A DNA stretch of 44,818 nt from Bacteroidia bacterium. GTDB lineage: Bacteria > Bacteroidota > Bacteroidia > UKL13-3. The notes under the pieces are model-generated. The model saw nothing but the letters and a program-made list of their open reading frames with translations. It ran no database searches and was not told where the DNA came from. The stretch is from contig JALONK010000024.1 in the NCBI GenBank assembly GCA_025454975.1, positions 1 to 44,818 on the forward strand, written 5' to 3'. Both the position numbers and the translations under genes were made by a program. Below, one piece after another: positions 8,041 to 42,378 of the stretch (its first letter is position 1; each line of letters begins with the position of its first letter).

Positions 8041-10239
8041 ATGATTTTACGAATACTATCGCTACTTATTTTAATGCCTTATTTGGCATTAGGGCAATCG
8101 AAAATGTTAAGCATTGACGACGCTGTGCTTAAACAAAGAACCACTTTAGCTCCTCAACGATTAATGGGTTTGGCTTGGGTTGCAAATGCTAATGCATATA
8201 CTTATTACAGTAAACAAAATGGAAAGGATTGTGTAGTTATGCAAGATGCAGCAACCCTAAAAACAGATACTGTATTAAGCATTCAACGCTTGAATGAAAT
8301 ACTTAAAAAAGGAGTTTCAGGATTTAAAGGAATTGAGCGAATATTACCGCACGAATGGTTAACTAAAACAACATTTAAATTTACCTATTTAAATAGTATT
8401 TTTATAGGTGATATCATTAACAATAGTATCAGTGTAATTGCTCACTTGGGCGAAAAAAATGAACATGCCGAAGTTGACCCTACCAATAAAAAGGTTGCTT
8501 ACACCATCAATGGTAATTTTTTAATCAGCACATTAAACTCTTTTTATGAACCTATTAAACCAAATGCCGGATCAGATGATTCGGGAAATAAAGATTTTAT
8601 TACTAAAGATGCCGGAGTTGGTCTTTCTTACGGTGGAACAGTACATAGAAATGAATTTGGTATTGATAAAGGAATTTTCTGGTCGCCAAATGGAAACCGT
8701 GTTGCCTATTATCAATTAAATGAAAGTATGGTAACTGATTATCCAATTTACAATTTATCTACTAAACCTGCAATTACCAGAAATGTGAAGTATCCGATGA
8801 GTGGTGCTACCAGTCATATTGCTAAAGTTTGGGTGAGAGATTTACTTAAAAATCGAAGTATCCAGTTACAAACAGGCGAACCACTAGAGCAATATTTAAC
8901 TAATGTTTCATGGCATCCGGGTGAAGAAAGCGTTTATATTGCTTTAGTTAACAGGGCCCAAAATGAATTAAAGTTGAATGAATATGATGGAGTAACCGGG
9001 GCGTTTGTTAAAACTTTATTTACTGAAACTCATCCGAAATATGTTGAGCCTGAACACGCACCGGTATTTGTTAAAAATAATCCAAAGCAATTTGTTTGGA
9101 TGAGTGAGCGTGATGGATTTAATCATTTGTACTTATATTCTTCAACCGGACGACTAGATAAACAATTAACACAAGGTAATTTTGATGTAACTCAACTATT
9201 AGGTTTTAGTAATGATGGGCAATTTGTTTTTTATATGGCAGCTTCAAGCGATGGAATGGAACGTCATTGTTTTAAAACAAATTTATACTCAGGAGTAACA
9301 AAACAATTAACCTTATTGCCGGGCGTTCACCAAGTAATGCTAAGTGCTGATGGAACTTATTTAATTGATGTGGTAAGTAATGCTAACACACCGCGTAGAA
9401 TAGTTTTGTTAAATGCGGATGGCGCAGAACAAGCGTTATTGTTAAATGCATCCAATCCAATAGCTGATTATAAAAAATGTGAAATGCGCTTATTTAAAAT
9501 CAAAGCAGCCGATGGTACTACCGATTTAAATTGCCGCATGTTTTTACCTGCTGATTTTGATGAGAAAAAAAAGTATCCTGTTTTAATTTATTTATACGGT
9601 GGACCGCATGCACAAATGATTACCAATAGCTGGCTTGGTGGATCAGATATGTGGTTATACTACATGGCACAACAAGGTTTTGTGGTATTCACTGTTGATA
9701 ATCGTGGAAGTGCAAACCGGGGACTAAATTTTGAAAATGTAACACATCGGAAACTAGGGGTTGAAGAAAGTGCCGATCAACTTAAAGGTGTAGAATATTT
9801 AAAGCAACAAAAGTTTGTTGATGCTAACCGAATAGGCGTTTATGGATGGAGTTTTGGTGGATTTATGACAACTACTTTAATGACAAAAACTGATGTATTC
9901 AAGGCAGGTGTTGCGGGTGGCCCGGTCATAGATTGGAGCTTATATGAAATTATGTACACCGAAAGATACATGGATACTCCGGCAGAAAATAAAGAGGGAT
10001 ATGAAGAGAATAATTTATTAAACCATGCAAAAAATTTAAAAGGCAGGTTGTTAATGATTCATGGAACTGATGATGATGTGGTAGTGTGGCAGCACAGTTT
10101 ACAATTTGTAAAAAAGTGTGTAGATGAAGGCGTTCTTTTGGATTATTTTGTTTACCCGGGACATCTGCATAATGTAACAGGAAAAGACAGGCTACATCTG
10201 ATGCAAAAAATTACTGATCACTTCAAATTACATCTGTAA
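8041..10239 (+). CDS. S9 family dipeptidyl peptidase IV-like serine peptidase
   Basis: The enzyme removes dipeptides, usually X-Pro, from peptide N-termini; in Bacteroidota it is generally periplasmic. From the ATG at 8041 the protein has 732 residues with a signal peptide (MILRILSLLILMPYLALGQ). An earlier in-frame TTG at 7999 lies inside the dnaN terminator and is rejected. Residues about 100-480 form the DPP4 N-terminal beta-propeller (FWSPNGNRVAYYQLNESMV is the family signature region). The alpha/beta-hydrolase domain contains the nucleophile in GWSFGGF (Ser604), the acid in HGTDDDVV (Asp678 by alignment) and the histidine in YPGHLHNV (His710). The triad is complete. Its stop is one base from the stop of the convergent HAD gene. 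Confidence 0.95.
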   Translation: MILRILSLLILMPYLALGQSKMLSIDDAVLKQRTTLAPQRLMGLAWVANANAYTYYSKQNGKDCVVMQDAATLKTDTVLSIQRLNEILKKGVSGFKGIERILPHEWLTKTTFKFTYLNSIFIGDIINNSISVIAHLGEKNEHAEVDPTNKKVAYTINGNFLISTLNSFYEPIKPNAGSDDSGNKDFITKDAGVGLSYGGTVHRNEFGIDKGIFWSPNGNRVAYYQLNESMVTDYPIYNLSTKPAITRNVKYPMSGATSHIAKVWVRDLLKNRSIQLQTGEPLEQYLTNVSWHPGEESVYIALVNRAQNELKLNEYDGVTGAFVKTLFTETHPKYVEPEHAPVFVKNNPKQFVWMSERDGFNHLYLYSSTGRLDKQLTQGNFDVTQLLGFSNDGQFVFYMAASSDGMERHCFKTNLYSGVTKQLTLLPGVHQVMLSADGTYLIDVVSNANTPRRIVLLNADGAEQALLLNASNPIADYKKCEMRLFKIKAADGTTDLNCRMFLPADFDEKKKYPVLIYLYGGPHAQMITNSWLGGSDMWLYYMAQQGFVVFTVDNRGSANRGLNFENVTHRKLGVEESADQLKGVEYLKQQKFVDANRIGVYGWSFGGFMTTTLMTKTDVFKAGVAGGPVIDWSLYEIMYTERYMDTPAENKEGYEENNLLNHAKNLKGRLLMIHGTDDDVVVWQHSLQFVKKCVDEGVLLDYFVYPGHLHNVTGKDRLHLMQKITDHFKLHL

Positions 10240-10240
10240 A

Positions 10241-10894
10241 CTAAACTTTAATATCCGCCAGCGACTTTAACTTCATATCAGCAAGGGAAAATCGTTTGTC
10301 GTTAAAGCTAGCTTCGTCAGGTATGGCAATACAAAACATGCGTGCCGCTTTTGCTGCGATAACACCGTTTACAGCATCTTCTATAACAACACAATTAAGA
10401 GGATTTACTTTGCACCATTGAGCTACACTTAGAAAAATACCGGGATGTGGTTTACCATAGGGTTCGTTTTGTGCACTTCTGATATACTCAAAATAGGACT
10501 TAATGCCAAGTTTGTCTGTTACTAAATCAATTAATTCCATATAACTTGAAGAAGCTAATGCCATTCGGATACCTTTTTTATGCAGGGCTGCAAGTATTTG
10601 ATGAACCCCGGGCATTGCATCAGCGTGATTGGCGATAAGATGCTTAACTGTATCTAATACCGTCTTTTCGGTGAGTATAAAATCAGGATTTGGCCATGGT
10701 TGAAAATTATACCAATGTTGAACCACTTCATTTAATCTGAATCCCATCACCTGACGAAGCAAATCATCGGTTAAAGTTATCCCTAATTCACCAAAAACTT
10801 CCTTTTCTGCTTGTTTCCAAAACGGCTCAGAATTAATTAATAAACCGTCCATGTCAAAGATGACTAATTCGGTGGTGGCAGGAATATGCGACAT
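10241..10894 (-). CDS. HAD-superfamily sugar-phosphate phosphatase (HxpB/YniC-like)
   Basis: The 217-residue protein is a subclass IA HAD hydrolase. The nucleophile motif is FDMDGLL (Asp14, Asp16), motif II is ASSSY, the lysine is in GKPHPG, and motif III is IEDAVNGVIAAKAARM. The cap region with VVQHWYNFQPW and the C-terminal segment resemble E. coli HxpB (YniC), which dephosphorylates hexitol phosphates and 2-deoxyglucose-6-phosphate, more than beta-phosphoglucomutase. Substrate is therefore a phosphorylated sugar or sugar alcohol by inference. The gene is followed in the same direction, upstream, by a small exported protein (eight bases apart) with no clear link. Confidence 0.85.
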   Translation of the reverse strand: MSHIPATTELVIFDMDGLLINSEPFWKQAEKEVFGELGITLTDDLLRQVMGFRLNEVVQHWYNFQPWPNPDFILTEKTVLDTVKHLIANHADAMPGVHQILAALHKKGIRMALASSSYMELIDLVTDKLGIKSYFEYIRSAQNEPYGKPHPGIFLSVAQWCKVNPLNCVVIEDAVNGVIAAKAARMFCIAIPDEASFNDKRFSLADMKLKSLADIKV

Positions 10895-10902
10895 ATATAA
10901 AA

Positions 10903-11340
10903 TTACTTTTTGCTGATGTAAACTAATTCATTGTTTTTAAAAACGAAATTGTATTTCAGGTTCCTTAGTTTTAAGTAATTTCGATTTGACCAAGTATATT
11001 CAAATACAACATATCCATCTTCTTGATAACTTAAATCCGGAGTGCCTAAAATCCTTTTAATTTGATTGGAAGAAAAACTTACCACTTCCAATTGTTGTTC
11101 GAGGTAAGTGAATAACCACAAATAACCGCGGATATATCCAATACGTTCCGGTTGATATTTTCCGGGCTGCTGTTCTTTTAGTTCGAGCTTGTAATAAAGT
11201 TTGAGTTGATTAGTGATGGAATCGCTATAGTGTACAAGTTGCTTATATTCCAAGGTGGTTAATATGCGCTTTTTAAACTGTTGCGCAAATACATCAGTAG
11301 AAATAAAGGTTAAGCATAAAAATACCCAGAGTAACTTCAT
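10903..11340 (-). CDS. Small exported protein of unknown function
   Basis: I do not recognise a family. The 145-residue protein has a clear signal peptide (MKLLWVFLCLTFISTDVFAQ, cut near residue 19-20). The mature part is basic, with a helical stretch to about residue 70 and then alternating beta-like segments, including DLSYQEDGYVVFEYTW. That last part recalls small beta-sandwich periplasmic proteins of the SmpA/BamE type, but this is only an impression. It is spaced eight bases from the HAD phosphatase downstream and about 36 bases from the rRNA methyltransferase gene upstream, all three on the minus strand, so they may be co-transcribed. Confidence 0.7.
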   Translation of the reverse strand: MKLLWVFLCLTFISTDVFAQQFKKRILTTLEYKQLVHYSDSITNQLKLYYKLELKEQQPGKYQPERIGYIRGYLWLFTYLEQQLEVVSFSSNQIKRILGTPDLSYQEDGYVVFEYTWSNRNYLKLRNLKYNFVFKNNELVYISKK

Positions 11341-32499: not shown

Positions 32500-33456
32500 A
32501 TGATTAAAACTATTAAAGTATTAATTATTGACAGGGTTCATCCGTTATTGATTGAAGGACTTATGCAGGACGGATTTGAAGTTGATTATTTTCCTGATAT
32601 CAATAGAAGCGATCTTTTACATAAAATCGGAGCTTATCAAGGACTGGTGGTTAGAACCAAAACTGAAATTGATGAAGAAATACTGAATAAAGCATCAACA
32701 TTAAGATTTGTTGGTAGGGCAGGAGCAGGATTAGATAATATTGATGTTGATGTTGCTGCGGCTAAAGGTATTGACGTGTTTAATGCAGGTGAAGCGAACG
32801 CAGATGCAGTAGGAGAGCAAACCATTGGTATGATGTTAAGTTTATTTGCCAACATTAATAAAGCAGATGCAGAGGTAAGAAAATCTGTTTGGGATAGACA
32901 AGGAAATGAAGGCATCGAACTTAATGGTAATACTATCGGAATAATTGGATTTGGTAATACAGGCAGTAAGGTAGCCGAGAAATTAATTGGCTTTGATGTG
33001 GAGGTATTAGCATATGATAAGTACCGACAGCATTTTGGTAATGTTAATGTTAAAGAGAGCAGTTTGAACGAGATCTTTGAAAAATCGAATATAATTACTT
33101 TACATGTACCCTTAACAGCAGAAACACATGAAATGGTAAATTCAGCTTTTATTGAAAAGTTTAAAAAACCATTTTGGTTGTTTAACATGTGCAGAGGAAT
33201 GGTAGTTAATTATAACGATTTGATGAATGCAATGATTACAGGAAAGGTATTAGGGGCAGGTTTGGATGTATTGGCTAATGAAAAATTAAATACTATGAAT
33301 GAAGAAGAACTTAAATGGTTCAATTATTTCACAGGAAGTAGTCGAACGGTGCTTACTCCGCATACTGCAGGATGGACTGAGCAGTCATTTTACAAGATTT
33401 CGGCTGTTTTATTAAAAAAAATAAGACAGCTAAATTTAATCCAATCAATGAGTTAA
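32500..33456 (+). CDS. D-isomer-specific 2-hydroxyacid dehydrogenase (SerA-related)
   Basis: The 318-residue protein is an intact NAD-dependent 2-hydroxyacid dehydrogenase: FVGRAGAGLDNIDVDVA (substrate loop), GIIGFGNTGSKVAEKL (GxGxxG), THVPL-like LHVPLTAETHEMV, NMCRGMVVN (catalytic Arg), GAGLDVLANEK (Glu region), and TPHTAGWTEQ (catalytic His). It has no C-terminal ACT domain. Closest relatives are 3-phosphoglycerate dehydrogenase-like proteins, but the substrate may differ. It lies 55 bases after mgtE in the same direction. Since the serC-linked serA is broken in this window, this copy deserves attention as a substitute. Confidence 0.9.
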   Translation: MIKTIKVLIIDRVHPLLIEGLMQDGFEVDYFPDINRSDLLHKIGAYQGLVVRTKTEIDEEILNKASTLRFVGRAGAGLDNIDVDVAAAKGIDVFNAGEANADAVGEQTIGMMLSLFANINKADAEVRKSVWDRQGNEGIELNGNTIGIIGFGNTGSKVAEKLIGFDVEVLAYDKYRQHFGNVNVKESSLNEIFEKSNIITLHVPLTAETHEMVNSAFIEKFKKPFWLFNMCRGMVVNYNDLMNAMITGKVLGAGLDVLANEKLNTMNEEELKWFNYFTGSSRTVLTPHTAGWTEQSFYKISAVLLKKIRQLNLIQSMS

Positions 33457-33550: not shown

Positions 33551-36500
33551 ATGAAAAAGGTATACAGTTTATTTATGTTGCTTTTAGCCTTCTGTTTAGG
33601 GGCTAATGCACAGTCACAATTAGGTGAAATTCGAGGTAAAGTTACGGATGGCTCCACCAAAAAGCCGATGGAACTTGTTAGTATTACGTTAGAATTAAAC
33701 GGAATTGTGAAAGCACGCGTGTATTCTGATGACGACGGTGATTATATTATCAAGCCTTTGTCTCCAGGGAATTACACAGTTAAGGTTTCTTTCATAGGTT
33801 ATGATAACGTTACAATCGATGAGGTTACAGTTATTAGTGACCAAGTAACTTATCAAAACATTACCATGAATCCAAAGGGTCAAACCTTGAGAGAAGTGGT
33901 TATTAAAAGAAGGCGACCATTGGTTGACCCGGATAATTTGGGAAACACTATTACAAGTCAAACCTTAATGAGGTTACCACAGCGTAGTGCGAACATGGTT
34001 GCAAATTTAACCGCCGGTGTTGATGCAAGGGCAGGTGGTACTCCAAACATTAGAGGTGCGCGTGCCGATGGTACAGCTTATTATATTGATGGTGTTCGTG
34101 TACAAGCAGGTTCGGTTGCGGTGCCTCAAGCTGCAATTGATCAAATACAAACCATTACTAGTGGCACACCTGCTCAATTCGGTGATTTTACCGGTGGTGT
34201 TATTGCCATCAATACAAGGGCTCCGTCGAAAACATGGATGCGTTCAGTAGAGTTTATTTCTGCATCACCATTCTTTGGATGGGCCGGAGATAATTCTAAT
34301 TTCAACCAATTTGAAGGTTATGTGGCAGGTCCATTGTTAATGGCAAATAAAGGTCGCGATAATGAACGAGTTTTGTTAGGCTTCTCTTTTGCCGGAAATA
34401 TTATTTACTCTCAAGATGGTCGTCCGTCAGCGGTTGATATGTATCGCGCCAATGATGCTGCCCAAGCTAGAATAGAAAGGACGCCTTTAACAAGAACTTC
34501 TACAGGTGGATTTGTACCAAGTGGTGAATTTTTAACTAAATCAGATTTAGTAAAGGTTGACCAAAGACAAAATGTAGCTAACTATGCTGTAAACATTCAG
34601 GGCAATCTTGCATTTCAACCTTCAAGTTCAACTTCAATCCGTATAGGATACCAAGGTAATCATAGTAGAGGTAGGAACTTTAGTTTTGCTAACTCATTAT
34701 TAAATGCGGATAATAATCAGTTGTCGGTATTTTATGGCGGCCGCGTATACGCGCAATTCACTCAAACATTCGCAAAGAAACAACAAGAAGGAGAAAAGGA
34801 GAAACCCAAACCACAAACGGTATCAAATTTCTACTATACTGTTCGTGCTTCTTATGAGGTTTCATTTAACGAATCAATGAATCCGGAATTCCAACGAGAC
34901 TTTTTTAACTACGGATACTTAGGAACATTTACAACCTATCAAGCTAGAACTTTCGGCAGGGTTGGTCGAGGCTTCGGACAACAACCTGATGCATTTGGGT
35001 ATCAAAAACCGGATGGAACAACTGATACTATTTATTTATCAAGTTATGTGCGTAATTTTGGTTTGGTTGATACAGCTTATACTTTCCAACCGGGTGATAT
35101 TAATACCGTTCGCGGGAATTATACCCAAGTAATTTATGATTTCTTCGGTTCCCAAGGTCAAAATGTTAGAAGTTTAAGTCAGTTACGCGGTTTAGGCGGT
35201 TTAATCAATGGTGATCAACCTTTGGGGATTTATTCAAATATGTGGTCAAGTCCGGGTACGCTGCAAGGAAATTATTCAAAAAACATGGCTGAAGTATTAT
35301 CATTATACGTAATGTCAGAGGCCACTGTTGCTCCTAAAAAGAATCCAAAAGCAAAGCATGATTTACAATTTGGAATGATGATTGAACAACAATACAGAAG
35401 AGGGTATGGACTAAATGCAAATGGTTTATGGTCATTATCTCGTTTGTTAGTTAATAACCAATTTCAAGGTTTAGATAGTGCAGCATATACTTTAAAGTTT
35501 GATCAATTTGGTAACTTTCAAGACACAGTATTGTTCCAAGACCGAATTGATCCAAATCAACAATCGAACTTCGACAGAAATTTACGTCAAAAATTAATCA
35601 GTCAAGGTGCTACAGATGTTTATGGCAATCCTATTGATCAATTTAGTCGTCTCGATGTTAATGCGTATCGTCCGAATGTTTATTCATTAGATATGTTTAC
35701 TGCTAATGAACTATTAAATAATGGTAATTCATTCGTAAGTTATTTTGGTTATGACCATCTTGGAAACAGAGTAAGGGGTCGTCAAAACATAGATGCATTT
35801 TTAAATGATCCAAACAATAGAACGCTTGGAGCTTATGCACCTAATTACGCAGCTTTATGGTTTCAAGACAAATTTGTATTCAAAGATTTAATTGTTCGTG
35901 CAGGTGTGCGTGTTGAACGATTTGATGCAAACCAATTAGTACTAAGAGACCCATATTCATTGGTTCCAATTTATTCGGCAGGTGACGTTCGAAGAGGTAA
36001 TCTTAAAGGTTTAGCATCAAGTATCCCAAGTAATATTGGTGACGATTTTAAAATTTACGTAGATAATCAATCTCCAAATGCATCTAGCAATGTTCGTATT
36101 ACCGGATTTAGAAATGGTAATGATTGGTATGATAAAGATGGTAATCCGGTAACCGATCCATCAGCATTATGGCGCGACGCTAAGCGCGAAAACTCTCAGG
36201 CACCTGATAGAAACACACCATTTTTAGTTACAGATGGACAAGAGATACCAACTCAAGCATCGTTCCGCGATTATCGTCCTGATGTGAAAGTTTCACCACG
36301 TATTTGGTTTTCATTCCCAATTTCTTCTACTTCCCAATTCTTTGGAACGTACGATGTGTTGGCTCAACGCCCTACCGAAAGTAATGTTGCTCAATTTGAT
36401 GATTATTTCTTCCTAAATAACCGCAGAACCGGAATTATAGCAAATCCTGATTTAAGAATGACACAAGTAATTGACTATGAAATTGGTTTCCGTCAACAAG

Positions 36501-37351
36501 TGGGTGATAACTCAGCTTTAGCTATTGTAGCTTCTTACCGTGAATTCCGCAACTTAATTCAGTTATACCGTTATGTTCAAGCTTATCCTTTTGAGTATAC
36601 TTCATTCGGCAATCTTGATTTTTCTACGGTTAAATCATTCCGTTTGGAATATGAATTAAGGGATTTAGGTAATATTAATATTTCGGCTAACTATATGTTA
36701 CAGTTCGCTGAAGGTACAGGGTCTAACTCTCAATCAAGTGCAGCATTAGTGCAAGTAGGTTTGCCAACATTAAGAAATATATTCCCTCTTGATTTTGATA
36801 CCCGCCATACACTGAAAGGTGTAATTGACTATCATTACAGAACCGGAAAAGATTATAATGGTCCAATTGTAAAAGGTAAAAAAATACTTGAAAATGCAGG
36901 TGTTAACTTCATTTTCAACTACGTAACAGGACGTCCATATACTCAAACATTAATCGCAGTTCCTGAAGTTCAATCAGGAGTTGTAGCCAGAAGTCAGGTT
37001 AAAGGAACAATTAATGGTGCAAATCTTCCACCACAGTTTTATTTAGACATGACTATTGATAAAAATTTCGAATTTAAAAAGGAAAAATTAGATGGTAAAA
37101 CAGTACAATATCGTTTACGCGTTTTCCTTTGGGTTCAAAATTTACTTGATGCAGCTAACGTACTCGGTGTTTATGCTTTCACAGGATCGGCATATGACGA
37201 CGGTTATTTAGCTTCCCCACAATCACAGGAACAATTGAGGGTTGCAACCAATGCGCAATCATTTGTTGACTTGTATAATACACGCGTAGTAAACCCGGGT
37301 TTCTTTGCATTACCTAGATTAACTCGTATTGGAGCATCATTATATTTTTAA
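33551..37351 (+). CDS. Oar-like TonB-dependent outer-membrane receptor
   Basis: The 1266-residue protein has a signal peptide (about 1-20, ending GANAQ), a carboxypeptidase-regulatory-like domain (about 25-110, EIRGKVTDGSTKKPMELVSITLE in pieces), a plug domain (about 120-230, with GGTPNIRGARADGTAYYIDGVRV and FGDFTGGVIAINTRAPS) and a large barrel ending TRIGASLYF with a terminal Phe. The layout fits Oar-type receptors rather than SusC, and no SusD gene is adjacent. Substrate is unknown. The next gene starts 12 bases downstream and a PorV-like gene follows, forming one unit. A weak -7-like TACTTTAA lies about 50 bases upstream. Confidence 0.92.
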   Translation: MKKVYSLFMLLLAFCLGANAQSQLGEIRGKVTDGSTKKPMELVSITLELNGIVKARVYSDDDGDYIIKPLSPGNYTVKVSFIGYDNVTIDEVTVISDQVTYQNITMNPKGQTLREVVIKRRRPLVDPDNLGNTITSQTLMRLPQRSANMVANLTAGVDARAGGTPNIRGARADGTAYYIDGVRVQAGSVAVPQAAIDQIQTITSGTPAQFGDFTGGVIAINTRAPSKTWMRSVEFISASPFFGWAGDNSNFNQFEGYVAGPLLMANKGRDNERVLLGFSFAGNIIYSQDGRPSAVDMYRANDAAQARIERTPLTRTSTGGFVPSGEFLTKSDLVKVDQRQNVANYAVNIQGNLAFQPSSSTSIRIGYQGNHSRGRNFSFANSLLNADNNQLSVFYGGRVYAQFTQTFAKKQQEGEKEKPKPQTVSNFYYTVRASYEVSFNESMNPEFQRDFFNYGYLGTFTTYQARTFGRVGRGFGQQPDAFGYQKPDGTTDTIYLSSYVRNFGLVDTAYTFQPGDINTVRGNYTQVIYDFFGSQGQNVRSLSQLRGLGGLINGDQPLGIYSNMWSSPGTLQGNYSKNMAEVLSLYVMSEATVAPKKNPKAKHDLQFGMMIEQQYRRGYGLNANGLWSLSRLLVNNQFQGLDSAAYTLKFDQFGNFQDTVLFQDRIDPNQQSNFDRNLRQKLISQGATDVYGNPIDQFSRLDVNAYRPNVYSLDMFTANELLNNGNSFVSYFGYDHLGNRVRGRQNIDAFLNDPNNRTLGAYAPNYAALWFQDKFVFKDLIVRAGVRVERFDANQLVLRDPYSLVPIYSAGDVRRGNLKGLASSIPSNIGDDFKIYVDNQSPNASSNVRITGFRNGNDWYDKDGNPVTDPSALWRDAKRENSQAPDRNTPFLVTDGQEIPTQASFRDYRPDVKVSPRIWFSFPISSTSQFFGTYDVLAQRPTESNVAQFDDYFFLNNRRTGIIANPDLRMTQVIDYEIGFRQQVGDNSALAIVASYREFRNLIQLYRYVQAYPFEYTSFGNLDFSTVKSFRLEYELRDLGNINISANYMLQFAEGTGSNSQSSAALVQVGLPTLRNIFPLDFDTRHTLKGVIDYHYRTGKDYNGPIVKGKKILENAGVNFIFNYVTGRPYTQTLIAVPEVQSGVVARSQVKGTINGANLPPQFYLDMTIDKNFEFKKEKLDGKTVQYRLRVFLWVQNLLDAANVLGVYAFTGSAYDDGYLASPQSQEQLRVATNAQSFVDLYNTRVVNPGFFALPRLTRIGASLYF

Positions 37352-37362
37352 AGAAAATTGGT

Positions 37363-40300
37363 ATGAAAAATATAGGAATAGTATTTAAAAAGGCTTCGAC
37401 TGCAATTGGAATTGCAGCATTAACAGCCCTAACTTTCTCAGCAAACGCTCGTGAAAACAAAGGGTTGCCAAAAGAAAATGAACTTCCGGAACCTAAAGTT
37501 AGGGGTAAAATGGCAAACTGTTTGCCGGCCACTCAACAACGAGACTTGGACGTTAATAACGTTAGAACTACCATTTTAAATGGGGGAGACATGTGGTGGA
37601 ACTTAAGTAATGCCAGGTATGAAATCCCAAAAATTGAAACCGGACAGGTTGCTAAACACTCTTTGTTTGCCGGTGCCCTATGGATAGGTGGTGTAACAAG
37701 TGGTAACTTAAAAATTGCTGCCCAAACGTATCGTCAAAGTGGTAATGATTTTTATCCAGGTCCATTAGTGAATGGAGTAGCATCAATTAGTGCAGATAAA
37801 TGTAAAGCGTATGATAAAATTTGGCGAGTAACCTTAAGAGAAATTACTGACTTAGTAGAAGCTGCTGATAAAAATGCTATTGAAATATCTGATGACATTG
37901 AATCATGGCCGGGTAATGGTGATGTTTCAATTGGCGAAGCAGCTAAGTTAGCTCCTTTCTTCGATTTTGATAATGATGGTATTTATGACCCACGTGCAGG
38001 GGATTATCCAACCTTAAATGACGGTAATCCTGATGTAGATAACATTCCTGATATGATGTTATTTTTAATCTATAATGATAAAGGAAACATCCATACAGAG
38101 TCGGAAGGTTTGCCTATTGGATTAGAATTACATACCCAAGCATTTGCCTATTCAACTAACAATGAAATCAATAACATGACTTTCTACAGAACTACGATTT
38201 TTAATCGCAGCAATGAAATAGTGGATAGTACAGTTTTTGGTCAATGGGTTGATCCGGACTTAGGTAACTATTCAGATGATTATGTGGAGTGTGATGTAAG
38301 TAGAAATTTAGGGATTTGTTATAATGGGGATGACAATGATGAAGGTATTTTAGGATATGGATTAAATCCACCAAGTGTAGGTGTTACATTTTTTGAAGGA
38401 CCGCGTCGTCCGGATAGTTCTGAGATAGGTCTTACCAAGTTTGTATATTACAATAATGATTTCAGTTTAACCGGAAACCCAAGTCGCCCTGAACATTTCT
38501 GGGGTTATTTAAATGGCCGCTGGAAAGATGGAGCAAGCATCACTTACGGTGGTAATGGTAGAGGTGGATCTGATACAGCAAGTTATATGTTTCCAGGAAA
38601 TACCGACCCGGCAGGACGTGCAACTTGGAATGAGCGTATTGCAGGTAATCAACCTCAAGACAGAAGGTTTTTACAAACTGCTGGTTCATTCAGATTATTG
38701 CCCGGTGCTGTTAATCGTGTAACCATTGGTGTTGTATGGGCACGTGCTTCAAGTGGTGGTGCCACAGGTTCATTTAACTTATTAAAGCAAGCAAGTGATA
38801 GGGCTACAACTTTATATAAAAATAATTTCACCCTTAAAAATGGTCCTGAGGCACCTAAGCTTGAAATTGTTGAGTTAGATAGAAAAATTGTTATAAAAAT
38901 GACACGTACAAAGGAAATCGAGGAGTTCAGAAGAACTTTTGCGGGACCTTGTAACGACAGAACCGAATACCGTTTTCAAGGGTATCAAATCTTTCAAGTT
39001 TTAACTCCTAGTATTCCTTCTGATGTATTTGATCAAGAGCAAGCCCGACTTGTAGCACAATTTGATATCGTAGATGGAGTTAGCAGGGTTGTAAATACCC
39101 TTTTCGATCCGGAATTAGAAGAGAACGTTAAGAAAATAATGGTTGATGGAACTAATACAGGTATTCAGCATACTTTCGAAATCACTAAGGATGCATTTGA
39201 AACAGGTTCTGATCAAACCGTTTCAAACTTTAAAACTTATTATTATTATATTGTTTCTTATGCAACTGCAGTAAATTGTGCGAATGATTTCGAACAATAT
39301 TTATCAAGTGCGAAAACAGCCGACGAATTAAATCTATTAATTTACACTGCTGTTCCGCATGATCCAACCCCTTCCGGTTTAAAGCCTAATAGTACTTATG
39401 GAACAGGAATTCCTTTAACTCAACTTGAAGGTATCGGTAATGGTGGTAAAGAAATCAGGTTATCTAAAGCATCTATTGAAGAAGCTTTAAATGCTCCATA
39501 TTATTCGAGAGAAAGAAAATATGAGTCAGGATTTAGTCCGGTTACAGTTAAAGTAATTAATCCACTTAAAGTTCCTAAAGCTGAATTCGAATTGGCGTTT
39601 CGCGATACCTCTGCTAATCCGAGAAAAACAGATACCCTTTCGGCAAGAAATACACGTTGGACTCTTAAAAACCTAACAACAGGTGAAATAAAAAATTCAG
39701 ATACAACCTTAGCGTATAATAATGAGCAGGTTTTTGAAGATTGGGGTATTTCGGTTCAGGTAAACCAATCAATAATTCCGGGTGATGCTGAATCGCCGGT
39801 TGATCAATCAAACGGATTTATTTCATCTTCAATTGTATTTCCACAAGGAGCTAATGAATGGTTGACAGGTGTAATTGACGAAGATCCTAATTTTTCTCAA
39901 GCTCAAACATTACGAGTACCTTTCAACTGGATTCGTGCAGGTAGCACAGGTCGTCCGGATTTCAATAATCCTGAGGAGCATGACTTTGCCATAAATCGTG
40001 TTCCAATTGATCCACGTAAAAATTTCTCAAGTATCATCAATTCAAGGTGGGCTCCTTATGCTTTGGCCGCTCGTTGGAGAACAACTAACACTGCAAGGTT
40101 CCCAAGTTTCGGACCTGCATGGGATGGAGCAGTTGGGGCAGTGGGAACCGGCTTTGCATCAACCGACAACCAATTGGCAGATTTACATAGCGTGCGTATT
40201 TTTATTACGAGTGATAAATCTAAATGGAGTCGTTGTGCTGTAATTGAAACAGGTGAAAATACTTCATTGAATGTCGGAAATGCCGAGAAAATGGATATTA

Positions 40301-41232
40301 GAAAATCACCTTCAGTTGATAAAAATGGTGAACCGGATGGTACAGGCACAGGAATGGGATGGTTCCCCGGATATGCGATTGACATGGAAACCGGCGAACG
40401 TTTGAATATCATGTTTGGTGAAGATTCATCAATTCCAGAAGAAAATGGTTCGGACATGATTTGGAATCCAACGGCTAATTTGTTTAATAGACTTGGTCGT
40501 CCGGTATTCGGAGGTAAGCACTATATATATGTAATGGGTAGCAAACAATTTGATTTGGGTACCATCAGATACAGAGGTCCTCGTTATGATGAATGTGCTG
40601 ATTATGCAGCTCGCTTGTCAAGCAATCCTCCTGCAGGTGCACCTTCTGCTTATCTTGTAAGAAAACGTCAAGTTTATTCACAAGTATATTACACTTCAAT
40701 GCCTTTAACTACAGGTAATGGTGTGTTAAGAAATATTTGGCAAGGATTAGTGCCAAGTGATGTAACTATAAGTATTAACGTTAAACGTCCGTATGCAAGT
40801 TTCTCTGTAGATGCAAACGTTGAAAACGATAGCATGCCGTTGTTCAGATTCAAAACTGATGGCTTTGCAACATTAATCGGTGATAAATCAGTAGCCAAAA
40901 AAGCATTAGACAAAGTAAGTATTGTGCCTAATCCTTATTATGCTTACTCTCAATATGAAGATCCCGGTAATCAGTTAGATAACCGAATTAAAATTACTAA
41001 CTTACCTCCTAAATGTTTAGTTCAAATTTATACGCAAGAAGGAGTTGTAGTAAGAACAATTCGTAAGGATGATCCTACACAAACATTTGTTGTATGGGAT
41101 TTGAAAAACAATGCAAAAGTGCCAATTGCAAGCGGTATATACTTAATTCATATCAAATCAGATGATTTAGGTGAAGAGCGAATAATAAAATGGTTTGGTA
41201 TCATGCGTCCTGTTGATTACGACACATTCTAA
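37363..41232 (+). CDS. Very large exported surface protein with a T9SS/FlgD-like C-terminal domain
   Basis: The 1289-residue product has an N-terminal signal-like segment (about residues 1-30, ending near FSANA). It then shows features seen in Bacteroidota surface proteins: ALWIGGVTSGNLKIAAQTYRQ (about 105), an Asp-rich calcium-type stretch DFDNDGIYDPRAGDYP (about 205), NRSNEIVDSTVFGQWVDPDLGNYSDDY and many short beta segments. The end, from SIVPNPYYAYSQYED to the last residue, resembles a FlgD-Ig/T9SS type A sorting domain (WDLKN, VPIASGIYLIHI, KWFG), but continues a few residues past the usual end. Secretion by T9SS is therefore probable. No catalytic motif is evident. It lies between the receptor and a PorV-like gene. 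Confidence 0.85.
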   Translation: MKNIGIVFKKASTAIGIAALTALTFSANARENKGLPKENELPEPKVRGKMANCLPATQQRDLDVNNVRTTILNGGDMWWNLSNARYEIPKIETGQVAKHSLFAGALWIGGVTSGNLKIAAQTYRQSGNDFYPGPLVNGVASISADKCKAYDKIWRVTLREITDLVEAADKNAIEISDDIESWPGNGDVSIGEAAKLAPFFDFDNDGIYDPRAGDYPTLNDGNPDVDNIPDMMLFLIYNDKGNIHTESEGLPIGLELHTQAFAYSTNNEINNMTFYRTTIFNRSNEIVDSTVFGQWVDPDLGNYSDDYVECDVSRNLGICYNGDDNDEGILGYGLNPPSVGVTFFEGPRRPDSSEIGLTKFVYYNNDFSLTGNPSRPEHFWGYLNGRWKDGASITYGGNGRGGSDTASYMFPGNTDPAGRATWNERIAGNQPQDRRFLQTAGSFRLLPGAVNRVTIGVVWARASSGGATGSFNLLKQASDRATTLYKNNFTLKNGPEAPKLEIVELDRKIVIKMTRTKEIEEFRRTFAGPCNDRTEYRFQGYQIFQVLTPSIPSDVFDQEQARLVAQFDIVDGVSRVVNTLFDPELEENVKKIMVDGTNTGIQHTFEITKDAFETGSDQTVSNFKTYYYYIVSYATAVNCANDFEQYLSSAKTADELNLLIYTAVPHDPTPSGLKPNSTYGTGIPLTQLEGIGNGGKEIRLSKASIEEALNAPYYSRERKYESGFSPVTVKVINPLKVPKAEFELAFRDTSANPRKTDTLSARNTRWTLKNLTTGEIKNSDTTLAYNNEQVFEDWGISVQVNQSIIPGDAESPVDQSNGFISSSIVFPQGANEWLTGVIDEDPNFSQAQTLRVPFNWIRAGSTGRPDFNNPEEHDFAINRVPIDPRKNFSSIINSRWAPYALAARWRTTNTARFPSFGPAWDGAVGAVGTGFASTDNQLADLHSVRIFITSDKSKWSRCAVIETGENTSLNVGNAEKMDIRKSPSVDKNGEPDGTGTGMGWFPGYAIDMETGERLNIMFGEDSSIPEENGSDMIWNPTANLFNRLGRPVFGGKHYIYVMGSKQFDLGTIRYRGPRYDECADYAARLSSNPPAGAPSAYLVRKRQVYSQVYYTSMPLTTGNGVLRNIWQGLVPSDVTISINVKRPYASFSVDANVENDSMPLFRFKTDGFATLIGDKSVAKKALDKVSIVPNPYYAYSQYEDPGNQLDNRIKITNLPPKCLVQIYTQEGVVVRTIRKDDPTQTFVVWDLKNNAKVPIASGIYLIHIKSDDLGEERIIKWFGIMRPVDYDTF

Positions 41233-41243
41233 CATTAACGTAT

Positions 41244-41268
41244 ACCTGTGGGGAAACCCACAGGTTTT
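41244..41268 (+). promoter_or_regulatory. GAAA-tetraloop hairpin before the PorV-like gene
   Basis: ACCTGTGGG (41244-41252) pairs perfectly with CCCACAGGT (41257-41265) around a GAAA tetraloop, followed by only three T. It lies 12 bases after the large gene and 18 bases before the next ATG, so it is either a weak intra-operon terminator or an mRNA stability element. Confidence 0.7.
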
Positions 41269-41286
41269 AACTTAAAAGAAACTGAT

Positions 41287-42378
41287 ATGAAAAAATATAT
41301 TTTACAATTGTTATCTGTTGCAATTTTAGCACCTGCTGCTTCTTATGCAGGTAATCCCGATAGGGCCGGCGGTGCCGGAGCAACTCAATTGCTTATCAAT
41401 CCTTATGCACGTTCAGGCGCACTTTTCGGCTCTAATACGGCTTCAGTTAGAGGTGTAGAAGCTATGCATTTTAATATTGGAGGTTTAGCTTATACTCAAA
41501 AAACAGAATTGTTTTTGTCTAATGTTAACTACCTTCAAGGAACTGATGTGTTTATTCGTAATTTTGGAATGGCACAAAATTTAGGTGGCGGCAATGTAAT
41601 GGGAATTAGCGTTAATTCTTTTGATTTCGGAAATTTACCAATTACAACCGAAAGCCAGCCGGATGCTACTTTAGGAACCTTCTCGCCTCAAGTTTTAAAT
41701 ATTGGTTTGGCTTACTCTAAAATGTTTTCAAACAGTATTACCGGTGGCATAACACTACGCATTATTTCAGAAGGTATTAGTAATGCAAGGGCCAGCGGTG
41801 TTGGTTTAGATGCTGGTGTTCAATATCAAACTACTTTAATTAAGGGCAAAAAAGATATCAAAAAGGAAGATTTTAGATTTGGTATTGCCGTTCGTAATAT
41901 TGGGCCGAATATGAAATATACAGGTTCAGGTTTGTCATTTCGTGCCATTGTTCCTGCATCAGGTGCCGATCGTCGTGCCTATATGGGTTCTGAATCATTT
42001 AACTTACCCGCATTGGTAAACATTGGTGTTAGTTATGATATGCGTTTAGATAAAAAAGGAAGTGAGTCGTATAATCATAAGCTTACCGGACATGGTAACT
42101 TTAACTATAATTCATTCTCTGCTAATATCATTTCGTTAGGTTTAGAATACGCATTCAAAAACACAGCTATGGCTCGTTTTGGTTATATGTATCAGGAAGA
42201 TATTCACAACACAGCCGATTACCGTACACAATATATAGGTATTACCGGTGGTTTTGGATTTGCACTTCCGGTAACTAAAACCGGCGATAAATTATTAATT
42301 GATTATGCTTATACACCGACAAGAGTGTTTAATGGAATACATACAGTAACCCTTGCTTATATTCTTGCATCTAAATAA
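41287..42378 (+). CDS. PorV/PorQ-like outer-membrane barrel protein
   Basis: Starting at the ATG at 41287 the protein has 363 residues; an in-frame GTG at 41248 lies inside a hairpin and is rejected. It has a signal peptide (about 1-20, ending ASYAG). The family pattern is GGAGATQLLINPYARSGALFG, then GVEAMHFNIGGLAYTQKTELFLSNVNYLQG, FGNLPITTES, GVGLDAGVQYQT, FRFGIAVRNIGPNMKY and a C-terminal LGLEYAFKNTAMARFGYMY segment, as in the PorV/PorQ (FadL-like) barrels. PorV is the T9SS shuttle that takes cargo from the translocon to the attachment complex. Its place behind a probable T9SS cargo suggests a dedicated role. Confidence 0.88.
   Translation: MKKYILQLLSVAILAPAASYAGNPDRAGGAGATQLLINPYARSGALFGSNTASVRGVEAMHFNIGGLAYTQKTELFLSNVNYLQGTDVFIRNFGMAQNLGGGNVMGISVNSFDFGNLPITTESQPDATLGTFSPQVLNIGLAYSKMFSNSITGGITLRIISEGISNARASGVGLDAGVQYQTTLIKGKKDIKKEDFRFGIAVRNIGPNMKYTGSGLSFRAIVPASGADRRAYMGSESFNLPALVNIGVSYDMRLDKKGSESYNHKLTGHGNFNYNSFSANIISLGLEYAFKNTAMARFGYMYQEDIHNTADYRTQYIGITGGFGFALPVTKTGDKLLIDYAYTPTRVFNGIHTVTLAYILASK

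Follow-up and report, generated by a model that had tools for sequence, protein, structure and literature searches.

Three adjacent genes in the 44,818-nucleotide stretch analysed here (the window; contig JALONK010000024.1 of a Bacteroidia bacterium, assembly GCA_025454975.1) encode a TonB-dependent receptor (TBDT), a large exported protein with a T9SS sorting domain (CTD), and a barrel of the PorV/PorQ family, and this triad recurs across the phylum. We propose, with a probability of roughly 0.6, that the three products form one surface complex in which the exported protein, here called the cargo, would leave through the T9SS and be collected and kept by its own barrel beside the receptor. 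The direct basis is the order of the genes and its conservation, the families of the three proteins, the single branch that the barrels occupy, the type of CTD, the predicted fold of the cargo, and the confinement of the cargo family to genomes with SprA.

A preliminary description of this DNA had read positions 33551-42378 as a tightly spaced three-gene unit without a SusD gene, and each of these points is borne out. The genes for the TBDT, the 1289-residue exported protein, and the PorV/PorQ-family barrel are separated by gaps of 11 nt (37352-37362) and 54 nt, the latter counted up to the ATG of the barrel gene at 41287, and Pfam searches returned no SusD-type match among the proteins encoded in the unit and its surroundings. 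The features are as follows:

33551..37351, + strand: TBDT of the triad, 1266 residues (open reading frame, Pfam domains, profile search)
33629..33868, + strand: carboxypeptidase-regulatory-like N-terminal extension of the receptor, residues 27-106 (Pfam PF13620, E 3.6e-16)
33947..34201, + strand: plug domain of the receptor, residues 133-217 (Pfam PF07715, E 7.7e-6, above the cut-off)
37363..41232, + strand: cargo, a large exported T9SS protein, 1289 residues (open reading frame; homologues)
37519..38835, + strand: predicted beta-supersandwich domain of the cargo, residues ~53-491 (AlphaFold2, VIA-align, Foldseek)
40885..41229, + strand: T9SS CTD of PorZ/PorU type, cargo residues ~1175-1289 (NCBIfam, AlphaFold2 model, structural matches, conservation)
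41244..41265, + strand: hairpin between the cargo and barrel genes, 9-bp perfect, followed by TTTTAA
41287..42378, + strand: PorV/PorQ-family outer-membrane barrel, 363 residues from the ATG (NCBIfam, profile, tree)

The GTG at 41248, given as the start of the barrel in the list of open reading frames, was rejected, as it falls within the hairpin and is for that reason an unlikely start. The hairpin itself is terminator-like. Hairpins of other sequence are found at the same position in the loci of the genus and in several others, so that shape rather than sequence may be what is conserved, and about 30 of 135 cargo-barrel gaps (redundant loci counted) fold below -8 kcal/mol. This element may determine how much barrel is made relative to cargo.

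The preliminary description had further proposed that the three genes are a dedicated unit, to be judged by the gene neighbourhoods of their homologues. Those surroundings are not random: triad order and spacing are kept across the phylum, and because of this phylum-wide conservation the arrangement exceeds what chance would give. The order TBDT-cargo-barrel was found in all 13 loci from the family and in 16 of 20 from the class; it was also found in 59/72 loci from named genomes, which are mostly metagenome-assembled, and in 17 of 18 from the phylum's other classes, in which different genes flank the triad. Median gaps within the triad are 24 and 22 nt, and identity between families is ~40-50%. 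Most same-class loci have greA behind the triad, usually with a HIT-family gene and often with ruvC also in place, and greA is found behind none of the other-class triads. That the triad is kept there with greA absent indicates that the linkage of the three genes does not depend on what surrounds them, and linkage due only to the greA neighbourhood was rejected on the strength of these loci. Among the named-genome loci with enough flank, 11 of 69 have no TBDT adjoining the cargo. Where a genome carries an extra, lone full-length cargo gene, a triad-type barrel is encoded elsewhere in 10 of 11 cases, and in all ten of those genomes the end of a cargo gene directly precedes that barrel. Extra units were seen at loci L164 and L168.

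The receptor gene product scores above the Pfam cut-offs for both CarboxypepD_reg (59.7 bits against 32.3) and Plug (26.8 bits against 23.9), and among 27 homologues these two domains are matched in 27 and 26, respectively, with the TonB_dep_Rec barrel model matched in 9. Its profile also matches TBDTs of known structure in their plug domains (best E 1.7e-12), and an LREVVI motif can be seen by eye ahead of the plug. Judged by the combination of a plug and an outer-membrane barrel, its sequence places the triad receptor among the TonB-dependent receptors. TBDTs are themselves driven by TonB, and the power for T9SS export comes from PorL/M (GldL/M); the suggestion that the receptor acts as an "energiser" is for these reasons unlikely. 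The other role offered in the preliminary description, that of an "import gate", is possible, as is that of a structural partner.

The barrel belongs to the PorV family at large (NCBIfam PorV_fam NF033709, 145 bits against a cut-off of 90, matched by 29/29 homologues), and its profile matches solved PorV (6h3i) with an E value of 2e-16. Its scores against the equivalog models are 77 bits for PorV (cut-off 250), 67 for PorQ (220), and 32 for PorV2 (325), and a weak PorP match was seen in only 1 of 29 triad barrels. A tree of 74 family members places all 48 triad barrels in a single clade (support 100/99; recovered in 100% of 200 bootstrap trees) that stands apart from canonical PorV, PorQ, and the other paralogues. 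The same genome encodes PorU-PorV, PorQ, and two more PorV-family genes, and the idea that the barrel is a misread canonical PorV or PorQ was rejected, given that both are present elsewhere in the genome and that the scores fall far under the equivalog cut-offs.

The cargo C-terminus had been described as sorting-like, and this holds: the NCBIfam PorZ model is matched in 36/36 homologues. With a threshold of E < 0.01, the same 36 C-termini gave 36 matches to the PorZ model, 35 to TIGR04183 (type A), and 32 to PorU, and the window cargo scores 16.8 bits against TIGR04183 as a whole and 20.7 for the CTD alone, with a curated cut-off of 23. The AlphaFold2 model of the CTD (pLDDT 84.8) has seven strands. 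Its best structural match is PorZ 5m11 (Foldseek E 8.9e-6; Z 11.0 over 91 residues, rmsd 2.7), followed by PorU 6za2 with Z 9.2, and it also resembles the CTDs seen on PorV. A seven-stranded beta-sandwich and a near-invariant Lys close to the C-terminus were taken as structural marks of type A, and the CTD as modelled has both, with Lys1276 found in 97% of homologues; by HMM and predicted fold, it is of the PorZ/PorU type. A Lys near the end is almost invariant in type A CTDs, and their translocon-facing surface is reported to be poorly conserved (PMC10994853). In the cargo homologues, the CTD and the 13-residue tail past Lys1276 are strongly conserved, and since the translocon-facing surface of type A CTDs generally is not, this suggests a private partner. 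The CTDs of PorU and PorZ stay in place, and the two proteins are bound by PorV and PorQ, respectively (PMC5562754; PMC10202324); by analogy the cargo should remain on its barrel.

The body of the cargo is preceded by what appears by eye to be a type I-like signal peptide without a lipoprotein Cys, and homologues are present in 55/58 relatives. Pfam yielded no useful family over the cargo body, and a sequence-profile search against solved structures returned no match. AlphaFold2 modelled the whole protein with a mean pLDDT of 86.8, and in this model the first ~440 residues are confidently predicted to fold like the beta-supersandwich of glycan phosphorylases and hydrolases: alignments to the N-terminal domains of GH15/65/94/116-type enzymes cover 230-270 residues at rmsd 3.0-3.9 Å (VIA-align; the top Z of 18.4 is for ~255 residues at 3.3 Å), and the best Foldseek E value is 7.4e-5. 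Beyond residue ~490, the model consists mainly of strands with few helices, and it has no run of helices like that of an (alpha/alpha)6 catalytic barrel. Glycan binding by the cargo is a natural guess from this modelled fold, although likeness of fold does not prove function. We also note a highly conserved stretch at residues 297-326 (38251-38340) with the invariant residues D297, D299, D305, D306, D311, and D326, which may make up a metal- or ligand-binding site of the supersandwich domain. Shorter proteins of ~500-890 residues that share the N-terminal domain are encoded at loci L071-L074, where no adjoining triad-type PorV-like gene was found; at L074 there are three of them in tandem.

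To place the unit relative to the T9SS, we turn to 392 genomes of the phylum, of which 319 have SprA and 73 lack it. The cargo family was found in 150 (at E 1e-20, a count in which some genomes possibly match through the N-terminal domain alone), and all 150 are also SprA-positive (Fisher p 5e-18, genomes not adjusted for shared ancestry). The converse is not true, as the family is absent from 169 of the 319 SprA-positive genomes. Occurrence only with SprA, but not always with it, suggests that the unit uses the T9SS and is not a necessary part of it. On the same count, it is unlikely that the cargo is a core T9SS component, and with about half of the SprA-bearing genomes lacking it, its role would not be a general one. 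A TBDT close to the T9SS has a precedent in Cytophaga hutchinsonii, whose PorV co-purifies with SprA and a TBDT resembling PorF (PMC8564354).

In the mechanism that we propose, the cargo would cross the inner membrane via Sec and then the outer membrane by way of SprA, the T9SS channel. The sortase would leave the CTD of the cargo in place, and the co-encoded barrel would take the cargo from SprA and remain attached to it, in the manner of PorQ and PorZ or of PorV and PorU, such that the cargo would stay on the cell surface. There it would be adjacent to the co-encoded TBDT and would bind a glycan or glycolipid, a ligand that might be either imported by the TBDT or produced by the cell itself. 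The collection and anchoring steps are suggested by homology, gene order, and predicted structure; the uncleaved CTD, the lasting pairing with the barrel, the contact with the receptor, the transport, and the ligand are inferred. The strongest part of the proposal is the pairing of barrel and cargo, and the weakest is the role of the receptor. That the PorV paralogue serves the encoded cargo, as the preliminary description had put it, is at the level of sequence well supported by the linkage across the phylum, the separate clade, and the PorZ/PorU-type CTD. The canonical PorV, which is also present, could perform the export of the cargo, and the PorZ/PorU-like CTD could still be cleaved. More tentatively, and with the odds somewhat against it, the triad may be a phylum-wide uptake machine in which the lid of the TBDT would be a T9SS-exported glycan-binding protein on its own PorV-like barrel in place of SusD; this would be a third T9SS tether beside LPS linkage and PorP/SprF.

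With canonical PorU and PorV encoded in the same genome, the cargo might instead be an ordinary type A substrate, brought by PorV to the PorU sortase, with its CTD cut and the protein released or LPS-linked, and the triad barrel would then be otherwise employed, for example in small-molecule transport like FadL-type barrels. The TIGR04183 match in 35/36 homologues and the near-invariant type A Lys agree with such a fate, but the CTD is nearer to those of PorZ and PorU, both uncleaved, the tail past the Lys is conserved, and barrels that form their own clade remain linked to the cargo phylum-wide in differing contexts; we judge this reading to be distinctly improbable. It is unlikely, too, that the triad complex has a core structural or envelope-building function, in spirit like that of the BAM surface subunits in Bacteroidota, with the TBDT as a non-importing scaffold. 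The phylum's BAM complex does use a FadL-family barrel and surface lipoproteins (PMC12578637), and both the strong conservation between families and the fixed position by greA in same-class genomes would suit a structural role. However, neither the phylum nor the T9SS can depend on a cargo that 169/319 SprA-positive genomes lack, the TBDT plug is retained in 26/27 homologues, and related units have multiplied in some other classes, which is a better fit to ligand-specific variants.

Finally, three separate functions could be held together solely by inherited gene order. Same-class loci, in which greA and the HIT-family gene are also in place, often along with ruvC, do lie in a stretch that is stable anyway, but the other classes keep the triad (17/18) with greA in none and the other neighbours changed, and the extra units at L164 and L168 also argue against this explanation, to which we give hardly any credence.

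The surface complex that we favour has relatives among known systems. PorZ-PorQ and PorU-PorV are the closest in that each places a surface protein with a type A-like CTD on a PorV/PorQ-family barrel (PMC5562754; PMC10202324), where the triad CTD, nearest to that of PorZ and then PorU, would likewise be uncleaved. Their passengers are PorZ, with two beta-propellers, and the sortase PorU, whereas the triad cargo is neither, its barrel forms a separate clade, and its unit includes a TBDT. Proteins with type B CTDs are carried and anchored by a cognate PorP/SprF shuttle (PMC12618676; PMC9143113). There, as in the triad, the gene of a T9SS substrate lies directly upstream of that of its own barrel, but the triad CTD is type A/PorZ-like and the triad barrel is of the PorV/PorQ family. 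SusCD resembles the triad in that the gene of a large surface protein directly follows that of a TBDT bearing a carboxypeptidase-regulatory extension; it differs in that the triad has no SusD and the partner is instead a T9SS substrate with a predicted supersandwich and a barrel anchor, and no lipoprotein. An assignment to SusCD was rejected, as the neighbouring proteins have no SusD match. PorF (PG0534) and CHU_1606 are TBDT-type proteins tied, as the triad receptor would be, to T9SS function or PorV (PMC8564354), but for neither is a co-encoded cognate cargo and barrel known.

In the open-access literature, we found no earlier description in which a protein with a PorZ-like CTD is combined with a PorV/PorQ-type barrel of its own and a TBDT. 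The principle of a cognate cargo and shuttle is already known for type B CTDs, and the proposed triad complex would be of a so far undescribed kind. A review has suggested that private PorV-like barrels shield PorZ-type CTDs from the sortase (PMC10202324), and the triad, in which a PorZ-like CTD comes with a barrel of its own, outside the secretion machine proper, offers a naturally occurring and widespread test of this idea. If our proposal is true, the pairing of a cargo with a cognate shuttle would hold for type A-like signals as well as for type B, T9SS export would be linked with TonB-dependent uptake, and a large conserved protein family that has no Pfam entry would acquire a function.

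The pairing of CTD genes and barrels may reach beyond the triad. Of ~53 PorV-family genes that were sampled across ten genomes (L185-L244) and do not adjoin porU, 19 come immediately after a gene with a PorZ-like CTD and 3 after a TBDT gene; the ~53 include triad barrels and leave out canonical PorV, which lies behind porU. With CTD genes so often directly before PorV-family genes, the triad looks like one widespread case of a barrel encoded behind its likely client, and such cognate pairs of CTD and barrel may form a general class that has gone unlisted. PorV-family genes can be numerous, with up to 16 in one genome (G086). In the window's own genome, at positions 9045-11314 of locus L055 (G000, contig C33), another PorV-family gene is followed directly by a gene for a 408-residue protein without an NCBIfam family.

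Immediately upstream of the TBDT in the window lies a gene for a SerA-like dehydrogenase of 318 residues (32500-33456). A SerA-like gene is found just upstream of the TBDT in 10/13 loci of the family, and also in four loci from other classes (L158, L162, L165, and L170), where the protein is ~530 residues long.
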